Shown: positions 873 to 54,146 of the stretch, piece after piece
Layout of the letters: every line of letters starts with the position of its first letter
Position numbering within the stretch: position 1 is the stretch's first letter
From: Candidatus Omnitrophota bacterium
Lineage (GTDB): Bacteria; Omnitrophota; Gorgyraeia; Zapsychrales; Aceulaceae
DNA length: 54,146 nt
Reading direction: 5' to 3'
Assembly (NCBI GenBank): GCA_028693815.1
Contig: JAQUUP010000001.1
Location: 136,433 to 190,578, forward strand
The notes under the pieces: generated by a model
What the model was told of the DNA's origin: nothing
The model's input: only the letters and a program-made list of their open reading frames with translations
Databases searched by the model: none
Made by a program: the position numbers and the translations under genes

Positions 873-944
873 TGTGAATTTGATTATGCTTACGATTATG
901 GCTACATGGAATGGCAGACGAATAAACAGTGTTTAGTAAAATAA
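873..944 (+). pseudogene. Possible detached C-terminal extension of pseudopilin 2
   Basis: Directly after the TAA of the preceding gene, the same frame reads 23 sense codons (CEFDYAYDYGYMEWQTNKQC...) before a second TAA at 942-944. The Asp/Tyr-rich composition matches the end of the upstream protein. This may be the original tail cut off by a nonsense change, or simply intergenic sequence that happens to stay open. No start codon or ribosome site was found for it. Confidence 0.3.
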
Positions 945-977
945 TTTTTAGCAAATTTGAGAAGGGAATGTTTCTAG

Positions 978-1630: not shown

Positions 1631-1631
1631 A

Positions 1632-2069: not shown

Positions 2070-2112
2070 GAATGATGTGCCGGATAAAGAATAAAAAGAA
2101 AAGATAAGAATA

Positions 2113-3693: not shown

Positions 3694-3739
3694 TACATTT
3701 TAGTTTGAAGAAAAAGTAAATAAAGCCAAGAGAGAAAAA

Positions 3740-4012: not shown

Positions 4013-4039
4013 TATTTTGAGGCATAAGGAGAGTGTTTG

Positions 4040-8028: not shown

Positions 8029-8901
8029 ATGCTAATTTTTATTTTTCTATTGGAATTTTTTGCGGTCTTTACACTTGTTCTAGCCATTCATGATACTTTA
8101 AGGCCAGAGCCCAGACCAACTTTAAAAGGGCTTGTAGACATGCCGAAGGAAGAAAAGAAAAAGTATTCTTTCTTTCGGCACCTTGTTTTTTTTAACAAGC
8201 CTTTATGCGCAGGACCTTTAGGTGAAAGGCTAGGAAGAGAGCTTGTCTTAGCGCGCATAAATATTTCTCCAGAAGAATTTTTATTTCTCAAAGAGCTTCT
8301 CATAGGGCTTCTTCTCTTTTTCACATATCCTATGTCGGAGCCGCAGTCGCGCATGATTTGGCTTATTACAATTTTGGCTGCAGGATTTTATGTTCCAGAT
8401 TTCTTAGTTAAAATAAAAATAAAAAAGGTGAAGAATTTAATTATCAAGGAGCTTCCAGACACGATTGATCTTTTAAGTTTGTGTGTTAATGCCGGGCTTG
8501 ATTTTCTTCTTGCGCTAAAATGGGTTATTGAGAAGTCGGCCCCTTCAATATTGATTCAAGAGCTTAAGCATGTTTTGCAGGAAGTCCATGTTGGAAAGCC
8601 GAGAAGAGACGCATTGACAGATTTTGCCAACAAATACCAAATACCAGATCTATCGACATTCACTAGAGCTCTTGTTCAGGCAGACCGCATGGGAACATCG
8701 GTTGCGGATGCCCTTAATATTATTTCGGAAGACATGCGAATTTCGAGATTTAGGCGTGGTGAACAAATTGCTTTAAAAGCGCCTTTAAAAATGCTCATGC
8801 CTTTACTGTTCTGCATTTTTCCTGTTGTCGCCATTCTTGTTGCTGGCCCCGTTTTTCTGCAGTTTTTTCAAGGGAACCTTATAAAAGGTATCAGCGGATA
8901 A
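8029..8901 (+). CDS. tadC: TadC-like Flp pilus assembly platform protein (GspF/T2SSF domain)
   Basis: A 290-residue inner-membrane protein: N-terminal helix (1-20), basic Lys/Glu stretch, two helices (about 86-126), then the T2SSF domain with KELPDTIDLLSLCVNAGLDF, a hallmark TadC segment (LPD.ld.l...v.AG), and RALVQADRMGTSVADALNI. A final helix pair lies at about residues 250-280. It pairs with TadB as the inner-membrane platform of the Tad pilus. It begins 5 bases after tadB ends. It is the last gene of the cluster: after it comes a 700-base non-coding gap and the giant gene. Confidence 0.88.
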   Translation: MLIFIFLLEFFAVFTLVLAIHDTLRPEPRPTLKGLVDMPKEEKKKYSFFRHLVFFNKPLCAGPLGERLGRELVLARINISPEEFLFLKELLIGLLLFFTYPMSEPQSRMIWLITILAAGFYVPDFLVKIKIKKVKNLIIKELPDTIDLLSLCVNAGLDFLLALKWVIEKSAPSILIQELKHVLQEVHVGKPRRDALTDFANKYQIPDLSTFTRALVQADRMGTSVADALNIISEDMRISRFRRGEQIALKAPLKMLMPLLFCIFPVVAILVAGPVFLQFFQGNLIKGISG

Positions 8902-9517: not shown

Positions 9518-9569
9518 AGCCACGGAAAGAGTACCCTGAAATTATTAATATTAACCAAGGGCTGTGGCT
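9518..9569 (+). promoter_or_regulatory. Candidate antiterminator/sensor stem in the giant-gene leader
   Basis: agccac (9518-9523) can pair with gtggct (9564-9569), and inside it ccct (9534-9537) with aggg (9558-9561). These right-hand strands are the left arm of the terminator at 9559-9583, so the two folds exclude each other, which is the layout of an attenuator or riboswitch expression platform. No known riboswitch consensus was recognised. Confidence 0.45.
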
Positions 9570-9592
9570 GGAAGTCACAGCCCATTTTTTTT
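9559..9592 (+). terminator. Intrinsic terminator directly upstream of the giant gene start
   Basis: gggctgtggct (9559-9569) pairs with agtcacagccc (9573-9583), giving 11 bp (one G-U) and a 3-base loop, followed by A and eight T's (9585-9592). It lies within the leader of the promoter at 9431 and ends 9 bases before the ATG at 9602, so it can only act to abort transcription of the giant gene (attenuation). Confidence 0.8.
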
Positions 9593-9601: not shown

Positions 9602-12600
9602 ATGAAAAGACAAAGTATTAAATCAATGATAAAGAGTTCTTTAAGTAAAGTATATCGCTTTACTATGAGAACTCTTTTTTTTGGTTTAACTAAGTCTTCT
9701 TATGAGCCCCAACCAGTGTTTTCAAAAGCTTCAGATGATATAACCCCAGAATATGCGCAAGAATTCCAGAGCCGATTTAAAGGCTGGATTCGCACAGTTG
9801 CTTTGGTGGTCATTCTTGTTTTTGTTCCAGAGCAGGTTAGCTGGGCTTTTAACTATAATCCTGCTATTCTTTGGAATCGAAAAAGCGTTGATGCCTATGT
9901 TGGGGACAAATCGTTTGAAACTGTTTCTGAAAATATCCAGCATGTCCTGGCCCAAGTTCAAGACAAAGAAAAGCCTCAAGTTAAAATTATTCTTCCAAAT
10001 AGCGATGCTGCAGGCTCTGAAAAGCAGCGCGGCCTTTTGGTTTCTTCCAATGCGACATTTGATGAGCAAGGTGTTGCCGACATGGTCGCATGGCTTAAAA
10101 ATCCTGATACTCACACAATTAATTGCGGTGTTTATGCCTTAAAAGATTTGTTGGCTTCTTATCAGATTGGCCTTGAACTTGAAGAAGCTTCTGTTTTGAC
10201 TTTGACGGTTGATATTTTAGGTAAAATTATCAAGGCTGGTGACCCAAAACTAAAGACATCGCTTTATGCGATTGACACCATCGCTAATGCCTATGGAATT
10301 AATTTTATGTCTGCTAAGATTTCAGGCGTTGATATTCAGCAAGTCAAAACTCCTTTTATTGCAAACTTAAATCCAGAACATTTTGTTTTTGTTAAAGCCT
10401 TTGAAGAAGGCAATGTTGTTTTTAATGATATTGGTGAAACAAAAGTTTTGCCTTTGGATCAATTTGTCCAAGAATTTTCAGGGTTTGTTTTTGCCGAAGA
10501 AAATGACTTTTTAGCCAAGTATGCCGAGAAAGTCTCTGATGAAAAGCAGGCTTTTATTTGGGGTTCGAAATGGCATAATCGTTATCTTGGAGCCATGGGC
10601 CCAATGGATACGGGCTGGAGAGATTTCTGGATTTCTAAAGGTGTAGACGTTGTCATGTTGTTTGTTAGTTATGGGCAAGGGATAAAAAGGGCTGGAGACG
10701 CTTTAAAATATGCGGATAAAGTAAGAGTTGCTATGAAGGTGATTGGCGCCTACATGAAAGCCCAGGCGATATATAAACTTGTTAATTCTCTTGGACAATT
10801 CGGTATTATGCAATGGGGCTGGGATGCTAAAACAACTTCGATTGTTTGTTCTGTTGTGTCAACAGCACTAACAGTAGGCTCGCAAGCTGCAGAAGAGGCT
10901 ATGAACGCGGCTGAAGATCAACTTAAAGAGGGCATGAAAGAAGAGGTTAAAGATCAACTTAAAGAGGGCATGAAAGAAGAGGTTAAAGATAAGTTGGTAA
11001 AAGAAGCCGTGGGTGAGGCTATCGTGGAGGCCCCTGGATTTAATACGTCCTCGATTGGGCCGGGTTCTACGGATTTATCAACGGTAGCTTCAGATTTGGG
11101 GGTAGTTTCAGATCTTGAGGAATCTATAAATTTGATTAACTCTGCTGAAGGCTATAACATGATAAAAGCAGCCGGTCAAGCTGTACATTTAAGCGATGCT
11201 GTGATAGACAGCATTTGGTCTCAGCTTAATCCAACAAAAGGTGTACTCAAAAGCTATATCGTTGGTGCTGTTGTAGGTGGAATGCGCGGTTGGGCTAATT
11301 ATGAGATTGCTTCATATATTGAAAATAAGATGCCTAATGCTAATCTTCTTGTTAAAGATCTTGTTTATACAGTGGGCTCGTCTCTTGCTTCTAGTCTTTC
11401 AGTTACAGTGGTTTCCGCTTTGGAGCTTGGAATTAATGCTGCTATTAAGGACGACACAAAGGAAATTAACTTAGTTTTGGGTCTTGGTCTTGAAACGACC
11501 GAAGGCGCAGGTAAAAGCGCAGGTTCAATATTCTTAGGCAACCTAGTTTCTGAAGGTAAGATGGTTGGCCGAGGCGCTGTTTTAGGGTTGGCTGGTACAG
11601 GGCTTGGGATGTTAGCCACAGACACCAAGGTTTTTGGTGGACGCAAGCACGATCCTCAAGGACAGTTTGTTCAATCATTGAGTCAACTCGGCAGTTCGGT
11701 CACAGGTATTTTTTGGGATCGTTTTGTTCAATCACAGAGTCATCGTTCTTTAGCCGCTAAAGATAAAGAGGGTAATGAGAGGAATTTTCTTTTAGGATAT
11801 CGCAATCGAAAAGATGATTTTGATAGTCGTAAAGAATATCGCAATGCGAAAAAAATGTTCAAGGCTCAAAGCGAAGCAGGTATTTTTCTTGATGAGTTTG
11901 ATGGTAATTTTGAAGATTGGTCTGCCGACAACTTATCAATTAATGTTTCAAGTAAACGCCAAAATAAAGCAAATAAATTACTTAACAAATTTTTTAAAGC
12001 AAACGAGAAGGCGAGCGCTTCGCTTGGAGAGCTCGATATCGCAAAGAAAGAATTAGTCGAAGGTTATGCTGATGGGAAATATGAAAAAGGAAATGTGGAT
12101 TATGAGGCAGCTAAAAAAGAATATAAGGGGTATATCAAATTCTTAGGAAAGGTTGCTAAGCAAAATAAAGTTTGGAAAAAAATAGACAAAGTTATATTTA
12201 AAGATAGGAAGGAATGGCTAGAGCAGGAAGCTTTTTCTCATTACGAGATAACACCTTATGTAGCCTCTGGCGTTGATCCTAAAAGTCTTTCTCGTAAAGA
12301 TCGTCGTAAGATAGTTGATGATTATGTCAAAAAAATCTCTAGTGCAAAAAGAGGAGAGATTGTTGCAAAATATATGTCAATGGGCATACCTCTAGATCGC
12401 ATTTCGCAATTTTCTTGGTATGGTAGCGAGGCTGAAGAAGACGATAATGATTTATATTTTAAATCATATAAAGAATACCGCGGAAAGATTTCTGACCGCA
12501 ATATTGCAATTTATAAGGAAAGAGAAGAGAACAGTCAACAAATTGGAGAAACAGATAAACAGTATGACAAGCGCATCCGCCGGTATATTGGTGAAGACAA

Positions 12601-30600: not shown

Positions 30601-33600
30601 GGCATCGAAAGTACCTGATTTTAAGGAAGCAACGATTTCTGTTTTGGAAGCAAAAGCTGCGCATTTACGCAAGCAAGCTTCTTTAAAGAAAGTGCCTAAG
30701 GATGCTGATCTGGGCTATTGGAAGAATGCCGCAGAGGTTGACCTAGAAGTAAGCAAGCTCAAAGGTCAAGAATATAATCCTGTGCAATCTGCTCTTAGTG
30801 ATTATTCTACTGACTTAGCATTAGCCAAAGAAACGAAAGATTATCCTAGAGCTTATGATGCAGTAAAAGTGCTAAGTGTTTTGGACAGCAAGAATTATAA
30901 CCAGAAGATTTTGACTAACGAGATTCTTTTTGAAGAATATTCACAGCGTGTAGAAGTTCTTGTGAAAGAAGGAAAAACTGATGGTCGGAAATATAAAGAA
31001 GCTGCTCAAGCTCGTCAAGAAGCGTACAAATTAGCAGGATTTGATAGATCTATTAGCAAAAATGTGGAAAAGATTTGGAGTGAGGCTATTGTGGCAGCAA
31101 GCAATAATGATATTAAAGCTGCTAATCAAGGTTTGGCTCAAGTAAAACATATTTTCCTTGCTTCACGAACAAAACAAGAACGCAAGCAGATTCAAGAAGC
31201 CGGAAAGAAAACAGCTGGGGCTATGAATTTGAAGAATCCAGAAATAGAAAAGAAGATTCAAGAAATAGCTAAAAGAAATGATGGAAGTGTTGAGGCAGTA
31301 AAATTTGGAGATGTTGTTAAAAAGGATGGACAAATATATAATGCGAATATGTCCCGTCCTTATGCTTTTGGAAAACGAACAAAACAACAAGAAGAGATAT
31401 ACCAAGTCATTCTCCAAGCAGAAAAGTCGCCTATTGATTCTGCTAACGAGAGGATGAGCAAAGGTGAGTCTGTCACCTATGGAGACTTGGCTCGGGCATC
31501 AAATAAGATTATTCAAGAAAAAGGTTATGGAAAAGATGCTTATTGGAATTTTGGTGCTCTTTTGGGGTATGGAACAGGACTTCAGGATTATGAAGAAAAC
31601 TTGATTGTTAGCGAGCAAAACAACATAGTTATTCAAGAAGGTGATGTTTTTGTTATGGAGCCAAGTATTTACTTGCCTGGAGTCTTTAAAGGCGGAGCTG
31701 GGAACACTTATATGGCTGTTAAGGGCAAGAAAGAACAGTTGCAGCTTGTTTCTGTAACAGGCGAGGCTCCTAAAGAATTACCGGTGATTGAGATACAGTC
31801 TGCTTCTTCTGTTATGAATATTGATAGCGACCGCGTTAAAACTTCTGAGACAAAGTCAGGAGGATTCAATACTTCGTCTGTGCTTCCTGCTATTGGCGCA
31901 GCAATGCTTCCTATTGTTTTGACTTTCTTGCCTATGCTTTCTAGCGCACAGAGCGTTGTTCAACAAGGACTTGATTTTGTTAATTCAGCACACGGGGATT
32001 ATTCTGTGGCATCTTTATCGTTCTTAGCTATCGGCGCAGTTACCGCATTTTTGACAAAGCAATTTCTTGATACAAAGAGATCTGTTGGCGATCAAAAGAT
32101 GGCGAATTCTGCGACGGTTGTTACTCCGTCAAAGCTTGCTACTGCTCGTGCATTACCTCAAAGCATTAATCCAGGCAGCTCAGTTGCGACTAGCGCAACA
32201 CCGATTACTGATTTGAAGAATGAAATTATTGCGCCATTGCTAGAATACGGAGAAACAGTTCATATTTATGTTGGCGGGGATTTTTATCGAATTAATAAAG
32301 GTTTTGTTGCTGAGAAAGAAGGCTTGGGCGATGTTGTAGAAGGATATGTTTTTGCAGCTAAAGAATCTGACAATCCATTAAACGAGGAAGATGAGGTTCC
32401 TTTCTTACCTGAATATGAAGAGTCAGTGCTCTTAGCTCTTGTTTTAGATACAGTGCTTGTAGCCACAAAAAATATTGTAAAATCTAAGACAGCAGTTGTG
32501 CCGACTACAACAAAGGCTCCAGAAATGGTTCTCGCAAGTTCAAATGTTGGAAGCTCGACTCTGCTTTCTAGCAGACCTCTTGGCAATATTGAGCTCCTTA
32601 ATACATATAATCAAGGTAATAGTGGGCTTACAGTTAGAGACATGGCTCTTGTTAGTGGATCTTCGGTGATTTATGTCTCCGCTGCTGAAAGAAAAGAAAC
32701 GATAGCTACTCTTAAAGATGGTCATATGGCAGTTTACGAGTATCCGGTCGATATTTCAGATATTAATACTGACAACAGTTGGGTTATTACTGTTTCAGAT
32801 GAATATAAAGATAGCTTTGTGCCAAGCAACGAGGAAGCTCGTTATATAGTCGGAAATGTAGAGTTTTCAGATGCACCATCTTTTTGGTCTGCACCTGATA
32901 TCTCGGTTATTGAAATTCCACAATTCGAAGAAATGGATGCAACGATTGATGGGGTTGAAGGCGTAACTGCGCCAACAATAGAGCAACCAGGTGTTCCTCT
33001 TACGCCAGTTGTACCAATGATTCCTTGGATGACAATTTCTAAGGCAAATGTTGAAGGAAGATCGCTAGCAGTTAAAAAGCCAGCGCCTTCCTCTATATAT
33101 AGGGCAAATGCACCAAATGGTGAAAAAGCAGCTGCTTCGAATATTCTTCTTTATGCAAGAAATATATTGAAAGCATTAGGTTTTGAAGCAATCTTTTTTG
33201 CGATTGATCTAGCCACATCTATTTCAATGCCGATTACAGCATTTATTTCAATTCTAAGCCTGGCATTGACCATGAGACCTATATTTGTTGGACAACGAAC
33301 AAGTCAAGCCCCAGAAACGCTTTCTACGGTCCAAACGCCAAATGAAAATAGAGAATTTAAGCAAGTTCCTCTGCCAAATCTAGGAAATCAACAAACAAGC
33401 AGTCCTTTTAGCGATATTCCTGTAGGGCAGCAGAAGGATCCTATGGCTCCTGCTCCGATTATGCCAGTTACTCCGATAAATATGCCTTTATTATTAGGTT
33501 CAGCGAATGATGGCAATGGGCGAAGTAGCTCAATGATAGCGTATGCGAGGTCTATTCATAACGATAAAGATGCGATTCAGAAATCCGCCGCACCAGTAAC

Positions 33601-36600
33601 AAGTGCAGAGCATCAAGTTGATTGGAAAGTTGCTATTGCACAGGGTTCATGCTCAAGCGGACTGGTTTCTGGCACGTCTCCAACGGTATATTTGGCTACC
33701 GACCGTTTCCACGACGGTTCAGGCAGCTCAGTAATAGTAAATGTGGAACAAAAAGTCACGGACATTATGCGAGTTTCTAGTTCTCTATCTCGTTTAATGA
33801 AGACAGTAAGAGACGAAGTAGTAAATAGCTTTAACTTGTTCTATGGTAACGTGTTAGGTGAAATTAGCCTAGCCAAACGAGTTAACAATGCCCGAGGTGT
33901 GCTTGGATTAAACGCCTCCAGTGAGCCTGCACTGTCCCTTACTAAGGGTGAAAAAGGTAAAGTTCGCTCTTTGAGTTTATTGACTGGTTTAATCTTTACA
34001 GAGGTATCTGCTGACGCTCTTATTAGGGAAGCAAACATATCTGTAGTGGCTGTTGTCAATGGATTCAAGAGATCTGTTCTTTGGTTAGCTGGATCGTTGC
34101 AAGGAATGTTCAGTATAAGCGAGGCTTATGCATTTGAACCTGTTGTATTAGGGGATAATGCGTCTAGTTTCGGAAAAATTGGCGTTCCTGGTGCTTTGGA
34201 AAGTGCGTCTTCTAGCATGAGCACAGAAAAGCTCGCACAACAAGTCACAAACGTATTGGATCGTGCAAGAGCTTATGTAGAGAGAGTTACAGCTTCTCTA
34301 TATAACAAGGTAAGCAACTTAGAAGCTAAAAACAGAGTAAGAGCAAGCTTTAACTTAGAGGCAAAAAACAGTATAGGAATTTCATGGACTGCAAGTTTAC
34401 TTGCGGTGTTTGCCATTTCTCAAATTCTTACCACATTGTTTGCCGGGGATACTCTGTCTCCTAAAGCTTCAATCCTTACACAAAAAGTTTCTTCAAATAT
34501 TAATCTTCGACCTGAAAACTCTAACGGGGATAACGGTGGTTCTGGAGTTAAGACTGTTCTTGCAATTATTGGCGTTATTATAGCAATTAAATTCTTTAAA
34601 TATGTCTTGGCTGTTGCTGTTGTTGCTGGAGCCGTTTGGGTTATCCGAAGAGCCCTTCAGAGATCAGGTGTTATCGGAACGGCTGCCCAGAAAACAAAAT
34701 ATCGAAACAAGAGCACTTTATCTACACATATTGTTCATATACTTTTAGCATTAGCCGCAATTTACCTAGCTTTTGTTATTGATAGAGCATTGTTATCTTC
34801 GGGCGAAGAAGGTCAAGTATTCCCAACGATTGAGGTTCAAACTGTTAAAGCCAAACAAGGCCTCAAGAATTTAGGTGAGGCAAGAGAAACCCTTCCTAAC
34901 AGAGATATCCAGAATAAATTCATATTTGTATTCGGATATACTTATGATACGGTTAACCCAACAAAAGAAGCGAGCGTTTCAGACCAGGTTTATGCCAAGC
35001 TTACTCAAGAGCTCGCCGATAGAAGCGGCTTAAGAAAAGACGGACAGCAAGAAAAACTCTATCGTGCTTATGTAGAAGCCATTAAAGAATTTAATGTTCC
35101 CTACGAACTTCCCTTTGCCGTAACATTCTTAGAAAGCACATTTGATATTACCAACAGCCTTTACAATCCGATGCATATGATCGGCGGAACACAAAACGTG
35201 CTTTATAATAATCTCAAGTCACAGCTACGAAACGGCAGGATCAAGAGCTCTTATATTAAGAATATCTTAAAGCAGTCAAGCTCTTATCGTGAATTTGGGA
35301 AGCTCGTAGATAAAGATCCTGTGCTTTATGCGCAAACAAATATTGTTTTAAGTATTTTCTATCTCTCCAATATTTACAATCAGCCTAAAGATAATTTGCA
35401 GCGTAACGGCGTTGTTCCTGAGATGATAACCGAGTGGAACGCGATGTCAGAAGAAGAAAGATTATTAAGAACTCTTGCGATTTATAATGCCGGGTTGCAA
35501 AACTATCTAGATGCTCGCAAAGCTGCTATTAAAGAAATTGGTAAAGCTGATACGACATTGGCTGTATTCTTGCCGTTCCTCGAGAGAGAATTAGGTTATT
35601 CAAGAGAAGTTTATGTGGAGAACAAAGTCGGACAATCCATTACGCGAAGCTATATTTATCGTGGACGCCAAACCATTTGGTTGCTTAATGCTCATACCGG
35701 CGTTGTTCCGGCTAAAGTAAAGCCGATTTGGATAAAAGCCTCCAGTGCTATTGAAAAAATGAACAAAACATCTTCAGCGCTTCCAATTCTTCCAGTGACA
35801 CCGTTAAGCTCTCCGATTGTTGTTAATGCGATTAGCCCACTTCTTTTATTCCCGATCATATTAAGCACTGGTGTAAGCGCAGCTTTCATGACAAAAGGTG
35901 CGATTATTGCTCTTGCGGCCGCATTTATAGTTTTCGGTATTGCTAAATGGCGCGCTAAGAAAACAAGTGCACCAAACGTTATTATTTCAAATATAGATGC
36001 AAACAAGCCGCTATCAAGTGAATTATCTTTCCGTGGCAGGATTGAAACTTTGATAGCGGCTTTTCTTTTAAATATCGCAAACATTTTGCCGGTTTCCGCT
36101 CATCTTTTCTTCCGTGGCAGGATTGAAGATGGTAAACCGGTATCCTTTATAGAACAGCCGCTATCGCAAAAATCACCTTTCCGTGGCAGGGACGTAATGA
36201 TTTTGATAGCGGCTATCTTCTCTTATATGGTAAATATTTTGCCGGTTTTCGTTCGCTCTTTCTTCCGTGCCCGTCTCGCCGAAGGTCCGTCTTTGCCGAG
36301 ATCTCGCCCAGCTTTTCGGGCGGACTCGCCGAGGCGGAGCAGGAATGGAATTGAAAAACCGGAGCTTTTGATCGCACAGCCGCTATCTTCGCCAAATCTT
36401 TTCCGTGGCAGGGAGGGACGCAAGATAGCGGCATCTTCTATCGAAGAAAACAAAGCTTCAAGCAATTTAATGCCATATGTCCTAGCTCCTACTTCTATGT
36501 TCCTAAGAGGATCATCGTCAGTCATTGTAGATTCTTTAAGAAAAGCGCGATTGACAATTCATCGTTATGGAAAAATGATTGAAACAGTTTCTTGGGGAAT

Positions 36601-39600
36601 TGAAGACTTAAAGACAGATATTAAGAAAATTAATCAAAAGATTAAAAAAGAAAAACGAATGAGATCAGAAGATGATCCTGTGTTAATAGAGCTCAATCAA
36701 GAGAAGCAAGGGGCTCTTAAAGATTTAAGGATAAGAGTCAGAAGAACAAAAAGATTTATTTCTAAGAAAATTACGCAAGAAGAATATCGCGATGCCCAAG
36801 TAATTTTAATAAAAGAGGCTATTTCTAATTTTGAAAAAGAAGAAGATGGATTAAGAAGAGGAGTTAAATTTTGGAAAGCACTACGAATTTTTAATAAAAA
36901 AGTTTCTAAGATAGAGAATCAAATTAATGCTATTAAAAAGGCTAAAACAAAATTTGAAAAAGCATTAAAGGCTAAAAAACAACAGAAAACAAAGACAGAA
37001 GAAAAGCTCTTGTTTAAAGAAAATCTTCCAAGCCAAAGAGATTATGCCTTAGATTACATTGTTTCAAGATATACAAGAGAAGTTGCTAACAAGTGGTATT
37101 TTACGCCAAGACAAAAAACAAAGATGTTGATATCGATGATTAAAGAGGCCATTGGTGGAATTTTAGCTAATCAATATCAGGCGATGATTGATAGAAAAGA
37201 AACACAGCAAGGCAAGCCTCTTACTGCAATGCAGGCTCGCACGCTGTTGACAAGCGCTTTAAACTTTGAAGATTTTGAAATGATTTACACGCTTACAAAA
37301 GCAAATAATGCAGATAATGGCAATATGGGCGCTAAGGTTGAGGCTTTAATCAGAATGACTTCAATGGAAATATTTAGAGGCAAAGGACACAGAAAAGCCA
37401 AGAAGGTTTCCAGAAAAACGATTGATGGAAAGATTACTCTTAAGACAGCGTTTATTTGGGCCTTTGGAGTATCTATTGTGGCGCTTATTGTTGTTTCAGC
37501 TTTGGGGACCTTTAATCCTTTATCTTCAGCAACACTAGACTTGCCAGGCGCAGATTTAAATAGCTCGATTGATTTACCAACCATGGAAGCACCAGCGATG
37601 GAAGCGCCAGCCATGGCGATGTTGCCAAGCGTAGTAGTTGGAGAAAAATATCATCATACTTTTGTTCGAGATGCTGATAATGTTTTTCAGGTTACTGTGG
37701 ATGGTAAATGGGATGCTTCAGATCCATACAGGAATACATTGAGCGGTTTTATTGTGGATGCTCAAAAAATTGGGTTGATTGCAGAAAAAGATTTAATGGC
37801 AGCTATTGATAGAGTTGCAGAACAAAACAACATCGAAAATCCTGATCTTGTTTATCCAGGACAAACCATTGTTGTGACGCCGGCAGCTGTTGTTCCGTCT
37901 GCTCAAACACAATCTATAACACCAGTTGCTCCTTTGAACGCAACAACGGTTAGCCAGCAACCTAATCAACTAGCAACACAGCAAACAACATCAGTTGCGC
38001 CAGCAACAACAACATCTTTAGGAACAGGAAATCAAAATAGCCAAGCTGTCGTAGTGCCAGATACAACACTAACTCCAGCTCAGAGAAAAATTGCTGAGCT
38101 TCAAAAAGCTCAACAGAGAATTGCTAGAGAGCAGGAGAGTATTCAGAGAAGCTTAGATAGTCTTGTTGCGGTTGCTCGTGAAGATAGCATTCGCAAAGCA
38201 TATAAAGATAGCGTTGATGCTGTTTATAAAGCAAAGTTTGCCGCTCTCAAAGATAGTACTAATGCTGTTCTTGATAGTATGGCTAGAGGTTTAGGCAGAT
38301 TTGCTATTGCTGCGCAAATGTTAGTGCCAGCACAAGACACAACACCTGCTATGGATACAGCAGTTCAGCCAACAGTAATTCAAACAACAATGCTAGCGCA
38401 AGACACTACTCCTGCTGTTGACACAATAGTTGCGCCTTTCATTGTAACTCAGCAATCTAATACAGAGCCGGTAGCTGTAGATACAGTAGCAAAAGACAGC
38501 ATTCCTGTTATGGATACAACAGCGCAAACAACGATTGCTCAGACACCAGCGCCAGCACAAGACACAACACCTGCTGTAGATACGACAGTTGTGCCGGTTA
38601 TTGCGACACAAAAAATTGACACATCTGCGATCATAAACAACACCCAAGCATTGCCAGCGCTACAAATAGCACAAGATCTAGATTCAACATATGTTAAAGA
38701 AATCAACATCCAAGAAATTTTGAAATCTGCAGGGCTTTCGCCACCGGCAGATCAACTTCAATGGATTGCCAACCAAGAACGCCCCGCCACCGGATTATTC
38801 GAAAGTTATAAAGTTATTGATAATTCTTTTGATAAGATTTCAAAGCTTCAAGGCATCGGATATACATATGACCAAGCTATAACAGCAATACTTTATCTTA
38901 GTGCTGGAGATTTAACAACTGCACAACAAATATTCAACTTTTATGTTAATAAAGGAATTCCTTACAGTGCTTATGATGTTTATACGGGGAATCCTCGTGA
39001 GTGGAGAAAAGCAACCGGTCCAGTTCTTTGGATGGGCATGGCAATGGCTCAATATACTAAGCAGACAAGCGACACAACATATCTTCCTTTGATGAGGCAA
39101 TATGCTGATTTTGCGATGAACTTACAGCAAAAAGATGGACGTGTTTTAGCTGGACTAAAGATAAATCATGCATCGACAGAAGAGAATTTAGATGCGCTAG
39201 CTTATTTTAGAATGATGTCTGATCTAACCGGAAACAATCAATATAAACAGGCCAAGCAAAATGTTAATCAGTGGTTGATTAATGATATGTACGATATTGG
39301 TGAAGGACGATTTTACGTTGGCGCCAAAGCGGACAACAATCCAGATTATAATCATGCTACAGACGTTCACACATGGGCTATCCTGGAACATTTAGCAGAC
39401 ACAACTAGTTTGACAGGTATCAGCATTGTAGATCTTTTAAACTTTAATGAAAAAAGAACTCGTACTGTCTATATAAGCCCTACAGATACGATTCAAGGAT
39501 TTGATTTTACGTTTAGACGAGATGGTAGTATTGCTGGTGAGTTTACCGCTCACGCAGAAGTTGTATATCTTCTTCTTGGGGATACAGTGAAGGGTGCCTT

Positions 39601-42600
39601 GTATAGCCAATCGCTGGACAAGATGAGCGTTGATGGTGGTGTGCGATATGCTACGAAGATTATGGATAATAATTTAGGGTGGATTGCTTCTCGTCATCCT
39701 TCTTTGGCTGCGACAGTATGGCATACATTTGCCAAGATAGGATTTAATCCATTTAGCTTAGAACAAAAATCTGTTGTTCATTTAAATACCGGCGCACTTA
39801 AAACTCGAAATGAACGCGATATTTTTAGACAAAGCATTCGAGAAGCTCAAGCTCAAGCCGAGGCAAAAGACATGACTCCAGAAAAGTTTGAAGTTATTCA
39901 AGCTGTACAGGATTCATTATTAGGAAACGCTACGCTTGATATTTATGATGCTCAGATTAACGCCCTTGCTTTTCATCCAGATACATTGGTTGCGCAAAGA
40001 ATAAAAGCTTTTCGTGAATCTGTTCAAGCGAGTCGTTCAGGATGGCCTATTAGAGGAGCTGTAGGTTACAATTGGAATCCTGTGGGTGGTTTTTGGAATG
40101 TTCCGTTTGGAGACACAAAGTTTGGTGGCACATTATTTATTGATAATGAATTTATGCAAGTTTTTGATCTTTTCCAGCAAGGACAAGGACTAAATGCAAT
40201 GTGGCAGGGAAGCGTTGAAGTTGCTCCTCTTCAGGCTGGCATAAGTTATGCGGCTGCTGTTCATGTTATTTTTGAAGCGCGCAATTCTTGGATTTCTTCT
40301 CGACACAAAGGGGAAGGCGGACTTCTTTATCTTAAATCTATTAATGGTAATGGATTTTCTCGAGCATTATTTGCAACCACAAAAGCTTCTTACGAGTATC
40401 GTGTTGTTACAAATTCTAATGGCGTTGATGACTGGGAACTTCAAAGACAGATAAAATATCATAGCTTTAAACCAACAAAACTTATTTTTGAAGATCTTAC
40501 AGGAAAATATCTTCCAATGACGTTAACAGGTGAAATTTTCATGAATAAAGAAAAACGTCTTGCTAAGACAACAGGATATGAAAAAGGTGTCTATTCTATT
40601 TTTGGTAATCCGCATCAAAGAGTCGGGGCTTACGAAAAACCAATGTATGACGTTGTCGCAGAAATTGGTCGCACAGAAAGCGTGTTTGTCCGCGATAGCG
40701 CACTAAATTGTATGAATCCAAATATCTTTTATCTTGTTATGCGCCAAGGAAGAGATGCTGTTGGATACACAATTAATAAAGAAACAAAAGAGCATGAAGA
40801 ATTCTTCCGCACACCACGATTCGATTCATTAGCAAAGCCATATGGCGAAAATTATAACTTATGGCTTGAAGAAGGCCAAGCGTATATGGTTCCAACCGGA
40901 TGGATGTTGCAAAACTTAAGAGATCAGTATCAGCTGATGACAGGTAATGATAATTTTGCTGGCACAATTGATCCTTCTCAGGGTGGAAAGTTAATTGAAA
41001 AATTTTATTCTCTAGAACAGATGAAGCATGTTGAGCTTGACTCTGTTCCTTTAGCTAAGGGAACCACCGTTTATTTTGATTCGCTTGTGTTAGCTCCTGT
41101 TGTGAAAGATACCATTTTGGGCTACTGGCCAAATGGTCGGCCAATTTATCCGATTGTAATCTTTAACTATCGAGCAGCTCAAATGAATTATTTCTTCCGT
41201 CAAAATATGGACTCTATTTCTTGGGATAATTTACAAGGATATTTTGTTGATCTTAAGACAGGAAAGAATACACCTGTTTTCCTAAACGATACAGTTTCTA
41301 TTAATGTGTTGTCGCAAAATACAGAAATTGAAACATTTGCAAATGACACAGTTGTTCCGGCTGGATTTAAGATTGCTTACCTTAATAATCATACAGTTCC
41401 AGGTATGTTTATTGAAAAGCCTGCCATGATGTTAGGTGTGCCGTTGGTTCGCTTGATTTTCAAGCAAGGTGTTTATTATGTTTATGATGAAAATGAGTTT
41501 AGAGCCCTTGATCTTTTCCAAAATGGAGATTTGACTTATGCTCAATTTGAGAACGGCGAAAAAGCGATTGTTGAATATAGTCCAAATCTTAAGAATCCAG
41601 AACACAAAGATGCTTTTATGTTTATTGAATGGCAAGATGGAACAACAGAAGAGCTTGTTGACAGTATTTATCCAAATGTTCAAAGAATAGATGCGGAAAA
41701 AATTCAGAAATCTGTTCCTCTTCCGATGAGTGTCTCTGTTGCTTCAGTGAAAGGTGATGATTTTGATCGATTAGACGCGGGGCTTAAAGACTTAGGGGTT
41801 GATGTTGGAAGTCTTATTGTAGAGCTAAAAGAAAAGAAAATTGCTTACGAAGATGCTTACAGGGCTCTACAAGATGCCAACAAAGGTTATGATGTTGCTC
41901 TCAAGGCAAGAACAGAATCGTATTATAGACAGGTAGGATTAGAGTTACTTGCTGGTGGTTTAAATAGAATCATATTGTCGATGGAAGAGAATCGCGTTAA
42001 GTTGGCTGCAGAAAAATTGATTTATGCTTGGATTTATCAAATGGCGTTTGATTTGGCTGATGGTAATAGTAATGCAGCTGAAACAGAATACAATAATATT
42101 ATAGAGAGAATGAAACAAGAAGGTCCTGAAGCTGTTGTGAAGGAACTTTTTAAAGAATGGAAAACCCCTCGAGATTCAACTGGCCGAATCTGGATCAACA
42201 ATATGGACTCAGCTCTTGTTAACAACCAAGAAATTATTAACGGTGCTAACGATCAGATTACTATTCTTAAGACGATTGGACAAACTATAACATCTGATCC
42301 TTATGATCAAGCAAAACATATTCTAGACGCTGAAGCTAACCAAGATACAGCTGGGTGGGCACGCGATGATTTAAATGCCATGATTGCTGCAAATAATTAT
42401 GAAGATCTTTTTGATAATGGTTATGTGCCGCAGGATTTAGCTGAAGTAACTCAAGCACAAGATTATCTGTTGGAGGAACAACTTAAAACTGATACCGCTC
42501 GGATTTTCTTTGAAGACGAGCTTCTTTTAGCTCAAGCGGCAGGGAATAGCGATTGGATTGCTGTTTGCGATAGCCTGCTTTCAATTCTTGACGAGAAAGA

Positions 42601-45600
42601 ACGAGTATTTGGCAATGTCTATGCTCCTGTTCCTGGCACAATGGCTTACGGGTTATATCTTCTTCAATTAAACTTTAGTGGAAATCAAATTTCTCGTTCA
42701 GTTATCGCAGCTACCTTTGCTGAGATTAACGATGATTTATATAATTATTATGATGATCTTATTGTCTGGTTGAACAAGGCAGCTGCGTTGCAGATTGTGA
42801 ATTATAGTGGTCTTGATGATGTAATCATTCCTCTCAAAGGTGGTCCAATTGATGGCGATAATCCCGACACCGAAGATGTTAACGAAGCTTATTTTAATAC
42901 AGGCAAGGATGATCCTAACACTCCATTAGTTAATGAATCAAAAATTTATACAATCCCAGCGATTCGAAAGTATTTATTTAAAGATGATAATGATATCAAA
43001 GCAGATACTGTTATGGGTTATCTTCCTCGATGGATGAAAACAGTTTCTTATATGAATTATATCTTAGACAATAATGATTCTCTTACGCCAACTCATAGAG
43101 GATATATTGAGCAATATATTCAAGCAATTTATGGTGTCTGGAATTCTGATCAAAGTGTAAACAGTTATTACAAGAACTATGGTCTTCCAGAATTAGTTTA
43201 TGACTCTATTCTAGACACCATTCCTTTTGCTGAATCTGGCGCAGAGATTGTTGCTCGCAAGCTCAATGCACGCGATGCTCAAGTTGTAGCGTATACAAAT
43301 CTTTCTGCAGCACAGGAAAATATGAGAGAATTCTTTAGTGAATTCTTTGGCGAAGATGGTGAGGCGATAGCCAAATATTTAGATTGGGTTGAAGAGCAAA
43401 TTAATAAAGCGCTAGAGACGGTTGAAGGGCTTAACACATTTGCTAATCACCCGTACAAGACTGGATTGCAAGGGATGCAGACGTTGAATCAAGGCATCGA
43501 GACTCGCACAGAAGCTAAATCAAGAATGAATCGAACATATAAACAAGCTCAGGCCAAAATTGATGCAGCCTATGATCTTCAAACGAATGTTTTAGCTGAA
43601 TATGATGCAGCATACCTTGGAGCTCGCGAAGCAGTTGATGCTCGAATCAAAACGCTTGATTGGATTCGCCCAAGCGATGCAGCGACGATTAACAGTCTTT
43701 TTGATGCGGTTAAGATTGATCAGGATGTTGTAATTTTGAAAGGCGATCAGATTATCTTTACAGATAATGGTCAGCAAATTCCAGCTATGTTTGTTAATGG
43801 AATGAGTCCAAAGCATTTTGCTCAAATGATGTTTAATCCAGTTAATCCAGGCGCAGGAAACCTAACCAATTTTGATGCTTACAATATGCTAACTTTTGGA
43901 AAAGATGCTTGGTCTTTGGGTGCTCATGTTGGAACTATGCAGGCATTTGTTGAGGATGCTCCATATAGTCAATATTGGTTGATTGATGTGACAACAGATC
44001 CTCGAAATCAAAGCTGGATGAACAATCTTAACTTTGGCGTTGAAAGACAAAGCAAGTTCCTTGAGGAATTTGGAAGCACCAAAGAAAATCCAAAGGGTGA
44101 GACTGTTAATAAATATTATTATCTTGTGGTTAATAGTTTTGGTGTTAGTGCAGATAGCGGGCGATTCTATTTTGGCATCACTGGTTTACTAGAAGTTTCA
44201 ACAGATAAAAAAGATCAAGTTTTAGGCGTTGCCGGAAACATGAGCTATGAAGTAGCGCCTTGGTTTTTCCTTAAGGTTGAAGCAGGTTTGATGGAAGGAA
44301 AATCGGAAGAGAATTATCATGCTACTATTGTTGATGCTTTAACGAATAATACAGTTTTTGAGTCAGATAAGCTTTTAGTTGCTAACGATGCTTTTGCTTA
44401 TCAGAAATTTAGTGCTGAGTTTAAGCCGTTTAAGGATGGAAACACTGTGTTTGGGCTTTCGTTTAATAATGAAGTTAAAGGGGTGGATGGTGCTTGGGGC
44501 AAAGAATCAGCACAGTTCTTGTCTGCTAATGCACGATCAAAATTAGGTCAGGTGACATTTGGCACCGAGGCTTCTCTTGATGGAAATCATAAACGCTATG
44601 GAGCAAATATTGGCTACAAGAATTTAACAGGATTCTATAATTATGTCGAAGGCGAGCAGCGTGCTGGTCTTAATTGGAATTTTAAAAACAATATTAGCAT
44701 AGGTGTTCAAACAGATTTTGAAAATGATCACAGAGGGACTGTTCGCGCTGGATACACGCTTAACGATGGTACACAAATTGCTGGTCAATATGCAGGTAAT
44801 GGTTTAGGGGCAATGATTTCTCGTCCACTTGTGACATTATTCTCCGGAAAGAAGTCAAAAGAAATTAAGACCGTTAAAAAACCATTTAGTGAAAATGATG
44901 CTTGGGTTGTTGGACGAGATATCTCTGATACCAGCGTTGTTAAAAAAGATGATTTTGTGCAAGATGTTTTTGATGTGCAAGCGCCAAAAGATCAAAAAGT
45001 AGATGTTGTTTATGGAGAAGATAGTCTTGTTGGTAAAGTTTATTATGGTCAGAAGGCTTTTAAGATTACAGCTGAAGGTCTTAAGGGTAATGGTATTTTA
45101 GAATACTTTGATGGTCGTTTGCCAAAAGTTCTTGAAGGTGATGTTTTAGAGGATTGTCAAGTTTTGCGTGTTATGGATATTAGAGACGAGCTTTATTTAG
45201 ACAGCGTTGGCATGGACAGAGGCGGCATTATTAAGAAAAATAATAAGTATTATTATGACAACATTGAGTTAAGTGACTCTACAGGTCAAGCACTTATGGT
45301 TCTTAAGAATATTCGTGGACATAAAGCGGATCTTGTTGGAAGGCTTCACATCGGTCTTCATTTATTAGAAATTGAAGATGCTTATGATGCCGGTCTTCTT
45401 TATGTGAATAAAGCAGGGCAATATAAGATTAAAACAGGCGGCGAGATTCTTTCCGATGAGTGGGAACCCGTCTTCCAGTTCTTAGAGGGTATTGACACGA
45501 TTAATGGGCTTCCGTGGATTCCTCAACGCGATAGTGAATATAATTTTGAAAAAGAAATCTATATCCAGAAAGAAGGATCGGGATATTGGTATTACGATCA

Positions 45601-48600
45601 AAACCGAGATGGCGTGCAAAACAAAGGCGAAAGGGTTATCCGTTCACCTTATCGAGTTACAGACCATAATAGCGTGGTTGAAGATTTATTGTTAAGCGGA
45701 TGGAAGCCTGTTTATATATTAAAAGATTTTAGCACCAAAAAAGCAAGCAAAATTTTAAGAACGAACGAAGATGCTCAAGCAATTAAGAAAGCGGCTAGAA
45801 CTAGCCAGATTCTTTTTTCTGAATATGACGCATCTGTACCAGAAGGCATTAAACAATCCTGGTACTCCCCAAGCGATCTCAACAATGCTGATCTTCGCGC
45901 AAAACTTTCTAAGAAGATCTATGAGGAAGGCGCAACGCTGATGAGCTTAGACACAGCAGGAAAAGCTCTAAAGTATTTCTACCCGGACAGGGATCTTGAA
46001 GACTCCAAAGTCATGTTCTTGCAGGAAGAAAACACGCCGGTTCGTCCTATGATCAAAGACGCTAAGGCCAAGGATAGCGTCCTTTATTTCTCAAAAGAAC
46101 TTGGTATCAAATTGATTACAGGCGCTGACGGCGTCACAAAACGATTTATTCTTTATCAGCATTATGTGAAAGAAAATGGCATTGAAAAAGTTATCGACTA
46201 CATCGGTGCCGATGCGTGGGGTAAAGTTATTGTTGAAACTATAACAGATAGAAAAAATAACATTCTTAACATTATTGCTAGCTTAGATGAAGAGAGTGGT
46301 GCTGTATTAACACCAGCCATTCTAGACACCAATGAATTTAATGGTAAAGAAAAAACCTCACGAATCTTTAAGAATTTTGATAACGCTGCAAATGGCATTT
46401 ATAATTTAGGCAATCAGACTGGCTGGGTTATCAACCGTGGCGAGAGATATTTACATCTTCTCGATAATACAAACTTTGCAGACGGCATCGTAACGTTTGA
46501 TTTTATCCGTGAAATTAATTTGGCAGGCGTGCGAGTAAGAGATTTTGGTATTGATGAAAATTCTAATGAGATGGCCATTAAATTTGAAGAGGAAGTTTTT
46601 GAGGTTAAGAATCAAAGGGGAGCCAACACCTTTGTGGCAGATTCAGTCGACCTTCTTAATTATAAGGCTTTTCAGAAAGTTTCTAAATCTAGCGAGATGC
46701 CTTATGAGGAACTGCCATCTGATTTAAGAGATCAGCTTGAGAAGAAAATTCAGGATATTAAAGGTAAAGACAGTGTTTCGGGTCGTGTTCCGGGTGCTGT
46801 TGTTAAAAATCCTGCAGATCTTATCTGGGTTAAGATCTTTATGCCTTATGTTAATGAGCATCCTATCGATTCTTCTTATCAGGCGTTTGCTAATGACGAG
46901 CAGCCTATCATTAAGATCGACAGTGATGGTTTTGCAGACATTGCCTTTGATATAGGCAATTCACATTATAGTCTTTTATACGATATTCAAAATCCGGCCA
47001 AGAAAGATCCTTTAACATTTTCTTATAAGGTTGATAAAGACGGCCTGTTTACGCTTGTTGTTGATTTGTTTAGGCAATCAGGGGCTTATGTTGAAAGACG
47101 CACTTTAGAGGATAAGCTTCTTAAGGGCAAATGGCATCTTTGGGTCAAAGGCAGCGTTCAAAAGAATTTATTTAATGCTCAATCTGTTCCTGAGGCCATT
47201 AAGTTTGTTAATCAAATTACTCTGGACAGTGGAATCCTTAGGTTCCCTGAAGGTTTAAGTCTTAGAAGCAAGGAAGAATTTGCTCATGAGGATTTCCAAG
47301 ATCATCGCCGTGCGCTCCTTAAGGTTTTTGAAATTCCTTCAATGACCGCAACTCGATATGCTGTCCAGGGTGAAGAAAAAGAAGTCAGCGTTTCCTTCTT
47401 AAGAGATCTTGTTCTTAAGAAAGACAGCGCAAGAATCGTTGTTGACGTCTTTACAAACCCCAAATGCGGAAAAGAGAGCGTAGAGAATTTCTTCAAAGAA
47501 ATCAGAGGCGTCAAAGGGCGCGTTATTGAAAAATGGCACGGCGAGTTAAACGAAAAAGGAGAAATCGTCATTGCTCCAGGCTCTATGAAAATCTATTCTT
47601 TCTATAATGGAAATGTTGGACGATATGGCATTGCGGATTACACAATGAAGACAGACGTCAATGACGACATGGAAGAAGAGCTTAATTCATTTGCCAATAT
47701 TACGGAAATGGATACAACAACCGGAAGCCTTCAGTATGATGTTAAGCGTTTATACGGAGTTTCTCTACCCGCCAATATGAAGAACGCGAAAAACTTTAAT
47801 CATTCTATTTTAGCCAAGAATACAGCTTTCTTAGACGGACTTAAAAAAGGACAAGATGGTTATTCCATCAGAGCTTGGAAAGAAATTAAAGATAGCCGCG
47901 GACGCCTAAGCATCACCTTAAACGGATTTACAAAAATCGGCAAAAATGGATTTGCCCAAGGCAGCGCCAAATGGGTAAACTTCTCTATTCATCCAAGCGA
48001 AGAAGACGTTTATACAAACAGTCCTTCTTTCTGTGCTGAAGTCTTTGGTATTGCGATAAAAAGTTATACCTATAAATATGACCCAGCAAAGGTTATCCCT
48101 AGCACTCAAGATATAAAGATTCCTGATGCAACCCAATATGCCCGCGTTGATTGGATGAACAAAGGGCTTAATGCTCTTCTATTTAAGAAAACAGATTTAT
48201 GGGAAGACAGTCGTTGGATGGCCAAGGCGCATAATTTGAAGTTTAAAGGCGACATCATGTCCTACGATGTTGAAGATAAGAGGGAAGCCTCCTTAAAAGA
48301 AATTGCATTTAGGCTAGACGGAAGATTGCATTATAACTTCTATCACAGCCTTGGCAATGAAGGCCCTGAGCGCCAGAAGCTTTATTTTGATCAATATGAC
48401 ATGTCGATCTTAAGCACGGAAGTTAATGAAGATAGATCTATCGAAGAGATATATAGCATCTTTAGAACAACGATCTTTAGCGATAAAGAGGGTGACGCTT
48501 ATCTCTTAACTGAAGAAAGCGTAGACTACGAAGTAACAAAAGATGGAGAATATCAGTTTGGTGAAACAAAATCATCAGTTTTATCAAAGAACGCCAACGT

Positions 48601-51600
48601 ACTCTTTACAGAAAATGGAAGTTATTACACAAGAACAGCTCCTTATTCTTCTGAGCTTTCATTGCGCGATCAGGTTCGAAACAGCATTCCTTCTCAGCTT
48701 GCCCGCTTAGCCCTTGATCACAAGACATCTCAAGAAGAGCTTATAAGCAATGCTAAGAATGATTTTACTGCTACGGTTCATGATGCTCATCCGGAAAAAA
48801 TTAAAACAGATGCTAAAGAACAAGCGCCTGCTACCAGCATTTTTGAAAAGGCTAAACGCTGGGCAGAAGGCAAATCTCTTGTTATCTGGATTCTAGCTAG
48901 CATCTTCTTACTGTTCCCAGCGTTAGTTGTAAGAACTTTAAGAAATATCTTTGTCCGCAACCGCTATAGAGGAAAGAATATTAACGGAGCTGATGTGCTC
49001 GATCTTATGGATGCAGGTTTTATCAAAGACGAAGCTTTTGAGATCTTACGCACAAGAAGAGCTCATAAAGGCTTTAAGACTTATGAAGAATTTGAAGAGC
49101 TTGCAAGAGTAGGCCTTGCAAAAACTATTTCTGCACTTAAGAAAAGAAAGCAGAGAGCTCATATCAGACGTCAACGAAAAGCGTTAAAGAAGCTTAAGAA
49201 AACTTTCTCCTTCTCTTATAGAAGCGGAAATATTACCCTTGAAGATATTATGAAGATGACACAACAAGGTGTTGGCATACAAGTTGGGGAGCTTCTTTCA
49301 GCTCTCTTGCCGGGTTCGCCTTATAGCAAGCTTATTCAAGAAGACGTTAATGAGATTCTTGCAGAGCTTAATGAATACAGCGGATATCTTTCTGAAGAAA
49401 CAATTTTACGCCGCTTTTTAGCTCACGCGATGCGTAAAGCACAGTTTAACGAGGATACAACCATCAACGAAAGAACTGAAGAAGCTCTTAAAGAAAAAGT
49501 TCATCAGCTTCTTAAGAATCTAGGCCTTGGCATTAAGCCGGGCGAAGAAAATTTCATAGGCGAGCATGCGCTGTTCTTTGATACGCTTATTAAATCTATC
49601 AAATTCTCTATGGATGTTGAGGAGCTTGACCTTCCAAGAGAGAAATCACCGTCAGGTTATTATGTTGTTACCAATGATGACCTTGAAAAAGAAGCCAACA
49701 GAGACCTTGGCATCCGTTCCCGCATCGTTTCCTTAGAGCAATTTGTTATGATGCAGGTTATTCAGCTTAAGATGATTGTTGTCAACGGGAACGGGCGGCT
49801 TGAAGAATGGATTTATCAGAAAATAACAAAAGATGACCGCTTAAATAAATGGCATGAAAGCAAGACGCATGGGAAGCGCATCATCGAGGTCATTAACAGG
49901 CTTTATAAGCCACTGAATGGCATCCTAATGGGACAAATGATGGGCGGGCAGGAGAAAATTAAAGATAGATTTGGCGATTTCCGCTATCATCAGTGGTCTT
50001 TACTCTGGGAAGAGCTCAATCAGGCAATGCGATATCTTCTTGGTCAGAATGAAATGTCTGAAGATGGAAAGCTGCACATCGAAAATGAAAATATTCGAAA
50101 AAGCGTTGAGGCGCTTAAGAGAGAGCTAGATACTCTGCTTAATCAGATATGTGACGGAGAAAAAGAAATTGAGAAAGGAGAATTCTTAAGAAAAATGAGA
50201 GCGGTTATTATGACAACTGAACACGCTATTGAGCTACCACGCGTTAAAAACCGCTTAGAGCATTATCAGCTATTCTGGATGGGCGTTTGGAAATTCATTT
50301 TAGGTCCTAAGAAAATTGCCAAAAAGGTATTAGCTAAAGAGAATCCATTTAAAGAGCATGTTATTGATAAAGAAAGAAAATTTTACCAAAAGCTCGTTTT
50401 CTCTATCGTTTTTGTATTTATGGGATTCCTCTTCTTTAACGCAGTTGGCAAATGGAGCCTTTTAGGTATTCCTTACTTCGTTAGCATCAGTCCTTGGATT
50501 TTAGTTGGCATTGGTGGCCTATTTGTTATTCAGGCAGCTTTCTTAGGATTAAGATATGCAAGCATCAAGAAGGCCAATCCTGATGGCGCTGTTAAAAAGC
50601 ATATCGTGCAACTTGCCGTAACCGCCCTTGTCCTCATCGCTGCCTTTACAGCAGCTGTTTTCTTGCCAGCAACCTGGAATCTTATGCTTCCTGAGGCAAT
50701 TAGATTTGTTTACAAAATTATCCTCTATGCTTTAGTCTTCGAAACATTCCGCTTGACATTCTATTCAATTCATTACTTTATTAAGGGCGCTATTTCATAT
50801 AACTTCTATAAAAAACATCACATTTATGATGTTGTCAAACATAAGCAACTCGCTGAAGCCTTAGATAGAATTTTCTCTGATAAGGCAGAAGGCTGGTACC
50901 TTAAGAAAACTATGGGACAAGAGAGAGTTGATATCTTTAAAAGGTCCATCCTAAGAGAGCTTTCTAGCCAGGAAGACTACCAGCTTCTTATAACTTTAAT
51001 GGAAAAGAAAGAATGGGAAGAGATTCTCGCAATCTATGATGCTCTAGCAAAAGATGGCAAGGAATACACAAGAAGACAAAGAGCAAAGAATATTGCTAAA
51101 ATTCAAAAGCTTCTTAAAAAAGGCGATAAAGAAGTTAGAGATGAAAGATATCATCGTATTATCCGTTGGGCCAATGATCAAGTTAGAAAAGATAAACCAA
51201 CTCCACCGAGAACAATTCGTGACCTCTTAGCCTATGCTCTATCAGAACAAGGCTATGAAGAACCTTCTTTCCATGAGGAAGACGATATCAATAGTCCAAA
51301 CAACAATGAAGCAACGCACACAACTCGTCTTGGACAACTTGCCAAGTATAAGACCGAATACTACCTTGCATTAATAGAGAGGCTAAAAGAAGGCATAGAG
51401 GTCGATGGCTTAATAATTAAGCTAACTCCTGAAGAAGAAGAAAGAATGAGAGAATTAATGAAAAGCCCTAAGAAGAAATTAGAAATCAATAAAAAGCTAA
51501 TGCCTTATGTGGTTATGTGGGCTAATACCCACTTGGCTGATTTATGGAACACCGGAAAATCTGCCATGAAGGTAAAACGCAGCTGGGAATATAGAATTCG

Positions 51601-54146: not shown

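Follow-up and report, generated by a model that had tools for sequence, protein, structure and literature searches.

A giant gene with a C39-type peptidase head is the last gene of a tad locus in an Omnitrophota genome

A stretch of 54,146 bp from an Omnitrophota genome (bases 136433-190578 of contig C1; hereafter, the window) contains a forward-strand reading frame that starts at ATG 9602 and is still open at the last base. Is this frame a single real gene, and, if so, what kind of protein does it encode and where might that protein act? An ORF scan of the window revealed 14,848 codons and no stop between positions 9602 and 54146, against ca. 1,072 stops expected from base composition; the stop-free stretch itself opens upstream of the ATG, at position 9503. 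Past position 8901, neither of the other forward frames contains a stop-free stretch longer than 200 codons, and no such stretch is present in the reverse frames anywhere in the window. With codon frequencies trained on ten ORFs located upstream of the window on the same contig, the giant frame was the top scorer of six in 44 out of 44 tiles of 999 bp, and G+C content peaked at codon position 1 in each of nine 4.5-kb blocks along it. These results bear out a sequence-only reading of this DNA, which had described an uninterrupted frame of at least 14,848 codons, with no sign of a frameshift, no long closed ORF in the other forward frames, and protein-like coding wherever it was sampled.

The nearest relative (row L014) aligns from the same initiating methionine. 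Fragments from genome G001 match the window protein at residues 17-8218, in order and with one local overlap; contig C28 of G002 matches at residues 1271-7839, G003 matches in order at residues 7876-12432, and G028 at residues 12948-14632. In window coordinates, a stretch at 39722..46897 (+) aligns with the giant frame on contig C16 of G003 (37% identity over 2,500 columns), and a stretch at 48443-53497 (+) is shared with G028 (26% over 1,799 columns). A join of different genomes, a danger raised in the earlier reading, left no chimaera sign: the relatives' fragments match essentially in order. That reading also held the gene to be unfinished at the window edge, and it is; the edge is the last base of C1, which ends at 190578 within the giant gene, and the gene is therefore cut by assembly and not by the choice of window. 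We conclude that the window frame (9602..54146, + strand) does encode protein and makes up the 5' part of one giant gene.

The continuation was sought in the same genome (G000; 1.897 Mb in 52 contigs, 96.5% complete). Contig C16 of G003, which is a single frame of 21,496 codons from end to end, also matches contigs C18 and C43 of the window's own genome. C18 has one long frame on either side of a 100-N scaffold gap, C43 has one frame throughout, and the two overlap by 228 bp at 99.1%. As judged from these matches, the same gene very probably runs through C1, C18, and C43, with sequence missing between C1 and C18; their sum is 14,848 + 4,762 + 7,891 + 2,017 - 75 = 29,443 codons, without the gene end. 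Several C16-C18 matches are out of order, which means that some modules have been moved or repeated; the joining of the contigs is one that we infer. No contig overlapping the end of C1 was found in a pattern search of the genome or in comparisons with C18, C43, and 20 small contigs (C32-C42, C44-C52), and these small contigs, of which C49-C52 read as N, revealed no convincing missing piece of the gene. The most conserved part among the giant frames compared is an alpha-glucan phosphorylase-like stretch of C18 (L086 12150-14624; E 6.9e-6), with 69% identity over 825 residues in G003 and 68% in G002.

Complete giant frames are present in G017 (35,884 codons on one contig, no N) and G025 (16,827 codons), and frames that run off their contigs in G008 (25,804 codons), G028 (22,400), and G006 (17,674). 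A second contig of G006 starts with an open-ended frame of 33,383 codons, with no N, which may be the continuation of the 17,674-codon frame. In G251, a frame of 57,756 codons spans a 100-N gap and is open at the contig end. A frame of 29,357 codons in G011 was discounted, as positions 72001-144000 read as N. Two giant-gene contigs of G002 (C25 and C24; L094, L095) are identical for their first 127 bases and then diverge, and this fork at an internal repeat helps to explain assembly breaks within the giant gene. In G001, the end of C20 (L056-L059) and the start of C12 (L089) have in common a 123-bp stretch with 91% identity, which we read as a diverged internal repeat at the break.

Residues 1 to ca. 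430 of the window protein form a conserved head, which consists of a signal/TM helix and a C39-type cysteine peptidase. The helix, seen in the structural model and in the alignment columns, covers residues 59-83 (9776..9850, +) and ends in SWAF, of which A82 and F83 are identical in 39/39 head rows; it would be a cleaved signal peptide. The peptidase domain (residues 170-300; 10109..10501, +) was recognised by Pfam (E 9.1e-6, 26 bits against a cut-off of 22), by a PDB profile match to the PCAT peptidase 6mpz (E 5.5e-4), and by structure comparison. The head model has a mean pLDDT of 80, exceeding 90 across residues 151-320, and superimposes on 6mpz_D with Z 15.0 and an rmsd of 2.3 over 119 residues (Foldseek, VIA-align). 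The putative catalytic triad is Cys175 (10124-10126), His260 (10379-10381), and Asp276 (10427-10429), all on the + strand. Cys175 is present in 39/39 rows, and all three residues occur together in 37 of the 38 rows that cover them. By sequence and model, the domain is a C39 fold with the predicted catalytic Cys-His-Asp intact. The fold and catalytic residues are shared with PCAT/ComA peptide transporters; in contrast to these, no ABC transporter was found in the giant chain, whose C39 domain comes after a hydrophobic helix in the head.

To what extent is this head shared? Scanning one genome per species (84,980 species) with the head alignment as a query yielded 38 head loci. By name, 33 of these belong to Omnitrophota, Omnitrophica, or Omnitrophus, two to Aceula and one to Zapsychrus (Omnitrophota genera), one to a "bacterium", and one to an "Elusimicrobia bacterium". 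The head was found in 24 of 35 near genomes, the window's own included, and, at E 1e-10, in at least 163 of 384 Omnitrophota genomes; weaker matches span the peptidase part only. Beyond the head, similarity fades outside the family. The head opens into a frame reaching the contig end (17 loci) or the end of the retrieved stretch (19 loci) in 36/38 cases, the remaining two frames stopping early, at 2,265 and 772 codons. A pattern search of viral contigs gave no match to the head.

The giant gene starts 700 bp after a tadC-type gene (8029..8901), preceded by a tadB-type gene (7166..8023); both, identified as T2SSF by domain match and by their neighbours in relatives, are on the + strand. Upstream of them, tad pilin and pseudopilin genes occupy 122..7057 (+), as judged from N-terminal sequences and conserved place. 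They include a Flp-like pilin at 978-1301 (+), recognised by a domain match of 31.4 bits, just below the Pfam cut-off of 32.2, and two large pseudopilin-like genes at 2113-3693 and 4037-7057 (+), identified by N-terminal sequence and conserved place. Along C1 lie, in turn, SurA-like foldase, RcpC, secretin, TadA-type ATPase, pilins/pseudopilins, TadB, TadC, and the giant gene. Secretin, TadA-type ATPase, TadB, TadC, and Flp-type pilin are thus all present together, and the secretin, RcpC, ATPase, pilins, TadB, and TadC stand in order upstream, as in Tad/Flp pilus loci. The secretin (L002 11615-13255) bears a TonB C-terminal domain, and the TadA-type ATPase (L002 13279-15438) is fused to a ParA-type domain. 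The pseudopilin-like proteins encoded at 2113-3693 and 4037-7057 contain 2.9 and 3.6% cysteine, unlike the adjoining giant protein.

Across the 35 near genomes, head and tadC were both present in 22 and both absent in seven, with tadC alone in four and the head alone in two (Fisher p 0.0013, a rough value only, because the genomes are related). Head and tadC lie on one contig in 19 of the 22, and in 19/19 they are on the same strand, the giant gene being behind tadC at a distance of 577-3,936 bp; in the remaining three, they are on different contigs and the head is less than 1 kb from a contig end. Contig ends are also close to the head in both head-alone genomes (within 1.5 kb), and to tadC in three of the four tadC-alone genomes (within 1.7 kb). 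The tadC of G012 has no head within 4.7 kb downstream. Among 27 head loci with at least 4 kb of upstream sequence, tadB and tadC precede the head in 25, the exceptions being L156 and L157. We conclude that the giant gene forms the end of a tad (tight adherence, Flp pilus) locus. To our knowledge, a giant gene as last member is not part of described Tad systems.

The leader of the giant gene contains a terminator-like hairpin of 11 pairs followed by eight T (9559..9583, +), ending 18 bases before the ATG, and a promoter-like site at 9431-9458 precedes this hairpin. Three terminator-like sites, two of them overlapping, were found in the leader versus a shuffle mean of 0.4, while promoter-like sites were not in excess (two versus a mean of 4.2). 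Taken as a whole, the leader folds in no unusual way (z -1.18), and an Rfam scan of the window gave 0 matches. Among the three closest relatives, G002 retains the hairpin, with altered loop bases; G001 and G003 lack it. As a general trait of the family it was rejected, few other of the 34 loci having a hairpin of at least seven pairs near the start. The hairpin may end tad transcripts, or it may gate or attenuate entry to the very long gene.

Giant ORFs of Omnitrophota have been published, in agreement with the sequence-only view that such genes are known mainly from this phylum, to which the host belongs. Those longer than 20 kb are described, in the text available of PMC10066038, as having TM segments and few annotated domains, as poorly conserved, and in some cases as containing adhesion domains. 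The window gene resembles them in phylum, in size (44.5 kb in the window alone), in its multiple TM-like segments, and in its few domains; it differs in having a shared, tadC-linked head, and in that the scanned parts of the gene revealed no discoidin, laminin G, or dockerin domain. A giant protein of 39,678 aa from Candidatus Velamenicoccus archaeovorus LiM, and a Tad locus at 12382-29832, are given in the same partial text (PMC10066038). Genome G107 is a single contig of 1,974,201 bp, on which a frame of 39,687 codons begins at position 29823, behind tadB and tadC; part of this frame is masked, the stretch retrieved containing 40,000 N. G107 is almost certainly V. archaeovorus LiM, because the frame size and the position of the Tad locus fit the published ones. 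Its head is 23% identical to the window head (E 3e-17), with Cys, His, and Asp kept. Taken as G107, the LiM giant has a homologous head behind tadB-tadC, as in the window, and no similarity to the window protein beyond the head.

Within the available portions of the sources, three-fold more peptides of the LiM giant ORF are reported in attached cells, and 42 TM helices are predicted (PMC10066038); a predatory life of LiM is described (PMC12583861, PMC13153191), and giant protein sizes of up to 85,800 residues are cited (PMC12057145). A C39 head, a giant gene-tadC linkage, or a bipartite cysteine switch, described below, was not reported in the parts accessible of PMC10066038, PMC12057145, PMC11573180, PMC12583861, and PMC13153191, a search that the original LiM and 85,800-residue studies lie outside and that does not prove absence from print. 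While giant ORFs of Omnitrophota are already known, the shared C39 head, the place behind tadC, and the cysteine switch are apparently new, judging by the literature searched. The window protein extends far beyond its head, and only C39 and one further, degenerate domain exceeded Pfam cut-offs in it. The study behind the sizes of up to 85,800 residues is reportedly that of West-Roberts et al.

This further domain is an M24 (Xaa-Pro peptidase-like) domain at 31298..31723 (+; Pfam E 2.3e-14). In an alignment to 1wy2 (E 1.1e-13), using what we take to be the metal-ligand identities, about three of five ligands appear replaced, which leaves only a related fold segment; the domain is for this reason probably inactive. 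A simple hydropathy scan revealed 13 TM-like segments in the window part, including a first cluster at residues 8314-9301 (34541..37504, +) and a second at residues 13092-14515 (48875..53146, +), the latter within the stretch shared with G028. PDB sequence searches returned nothing at E 0.1 for residues 1-4800, and nothing at E 0.01 for window positions 38852-53851.

The window protein contains only 12 cysteines in 14,848 residues (0.08%), against 1.57% over 12,635 residues in nearby ORFs. Seven gene sets were used to follow cysteine content further along the giants: G017, G025, and G028, together with G003, G006, G001, and the window's own genome, these last four joining contigs by inference. 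A cysteine change point was found in 7/7, and K/R drops there in 7/7. The switch occurs at residue 14,778 in G017 (0.19 to 1.35% cysteine), 14,122 in G025 (0.09 to 0.92%), and 15,745 in G028 (0.13 to 0.98%). Five to twelve TM-like segments are present in the 3,500 residues preceding the switch in six of the seven sets, while G006 has one.

Domains found after the switch include, on C18 of the window's own genome, NUDIX, GT5 plus GT1 (starch synthase type), DUF1152, MraZ, HD, response regulator, GNAT, TPR, the alpha-glucan phosphorylase-like stretch, and a radical SAM motif that has its three cysteines. CrcB, sigma-70, and TPR were found in G001; NUDIX, sigma-70 region 2, and M50 in G017; phosphoribosyltransferase and HAD in G003. 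A Pfam scan of six pieces of the G017 protein, starting after the first ca. 3,800 residues, gave 0 families in three pieces and three weak ones in the other three. The giant proteins look bipartite in sequence: cysteine is almost absent from the first part, while the second contains it and has domains of cytosolic type. TM-like segments per 1,000 residues are more frequent after than before the switch in G017 (2.23 versus 0.68), G025 (1.48 versus 0.92), and G006 (1.14 versus 0.13); therefore, a plain outside/inside split is too simple there. The tad pseudopilins, which are also exported, have a high cysteine content (2.9-3.6%, reaching 6.8% in a small one), and this counts against reading low cysteine as a sign of export. 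So does a crude control, made on a set surely containing spurious ORFs, in which ORFs that have an N-terminal hydrophobic segment were no poorer in cysteine than those that lack one (2.31 versus 2.36%). The C-terminal 601 residues of the G001 protein were rejected as a family marker, their TPRs matching in 35/35 genomes.

Another family of long proteins, hydrophobic at the N terminus, accompanies the giant gene. Its members are found directly after the giant's stop in G001 (L091 from 2209; G001:C12:42209-46438) and, in the window's own genome, in L201 (G000:C35) at 1139-10516 (52% over 357 aa) and in L208 (G000:C42). An ORF between tadC and the head in G020 (L167; G020:C40:71622-73871) resembles this family by eye.

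How might such a protein work? We lean towards a giant envelope-spanning protein, in which an exported, C39-bearing arm would, on cell contact, act alongside the Tad pilus, the rest staying largely cytosolic. The N terminus would enter Sec, the signal peptide being cut after SWA, and the first ca. 15,000 residues would be exported. The TM clusters would anchor the chain, and most of the remainder would stay in the cytosol. Together with the Tad pilus, the exported arm, peptidase first, would keep hold of a partner or prey cell and process it; the portion left in the cytosol would anchor the arm and may relay a contact signal or act on incoming material.

Alternatively, the whole protein may be an extracellular coat or surface hydrolase, held by TM segments and degrading surface polymers of target cells. 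Such a role has been proposed for the LiM giant, with its 42 predicted TM helices, according to Seymour et al. in the available text of PMC10066038, and TM-like segments occur throughout the second part in G017 and G251. The content of the second part argues against an outside location: radical SAM with its three cysteines, NUDIX, response regulator, HD, MraZ, and GNAT in the window's own genome, and sigma-70 and CrcB in relatives. So does the sharp change in cysteine at its start. No polysaccharide-degrading Pfam domain was found in the scanned parts of the gene, and we consider a wholly extracellular protein unlikely.

Another view is that the chain is a polyprotein, cut by its own C39 head or another protease into many proteins. 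The head protease has an intact triad, and some modules look like whole enzymes, e.g., GT5 plus GT1 and the alpha-glucan phosphorylase-like stretch. C39 enzymes usually cut at double glycine, the site that was searched for, and double glycine is not in excess either in the window protein (63 versus 76.7 expected) or in G017 (79 versus 97.4 and 85 versus 110.8 expected). If the head left the cell before the rest of the chain, it would be separated from the modules. A polyprotein thus appears improbable.

Equally speculative is a self-contained contact receptor of at least 30,000 residues, the arm of which would sense or cut at the partner and the inner part of which would bring its own regulators, contact then releasing or activating a covalently attached transcription factor. 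Proteases of the M50 site-2 type free sigma factors in other bacteria, and G017 has both sigma-70 and M50 domains; the giant frame of the window's own genome has response-regulator and MraZ domains and neither sigma-70 nor M50. Sigma-70 region 2 was found in the giant frames of three of ten genomes, namely G001, G017 (in two places), and G009, where the contig only possibly belongs to the head-bearing gene; with none in the other seven, a sigma factor was rejected as a general feature. The M50-like domain, with HELGH, is present in G017 only (1/10).

The head alone could be functional, as a maturation factor for Tad pilins, the body being loosely constrained filler; the tight linkage to the tad locus and the conservation of only the head across the order fit such a role. 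Nevertheless, bodies of 15,000-36,000 residues stay open in many genera, and parts of them are conserved from one family to another (37% over 2,500 columns in G003; 69% over 825 between C18 and G003), which makes filler very unlikely. Finally, an assembly or reading-frame artefact, or a join of different genomes, was rejected as scarcely credible even though metagenome assemblies do break within this gene (17/38 head frames run off the contig) and repeats are located at the breaks, given a coding signal of 0 stops in 14,848 codons and the best frame in 44/44 tiles, and the same layout in independent genomes, including the complete, N-free G017 frame of 35,884 codons on one contig.

With giant Omnitrophota ORFs described as poorly conserved, there was little to connect them. 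Many of these giants can be recognised as one family by the head and triad that they have in common, by their constant position behind tadC, and by their two-part layout. Since contigs often break inside the giant gene, its frequency is underestimated; the family features provide a handle for annotation and open the function of the giants to testing, namely whether the arm is outside, whether the C39 head cuts, and whether the giant belongs to the Tad machine. What the window contains is the opening part of a gene of one of the largest kinds known in bacteria, a giant that stands beside a gripping pilus, as it does in a relative that is reported to be a predator of other microbes.
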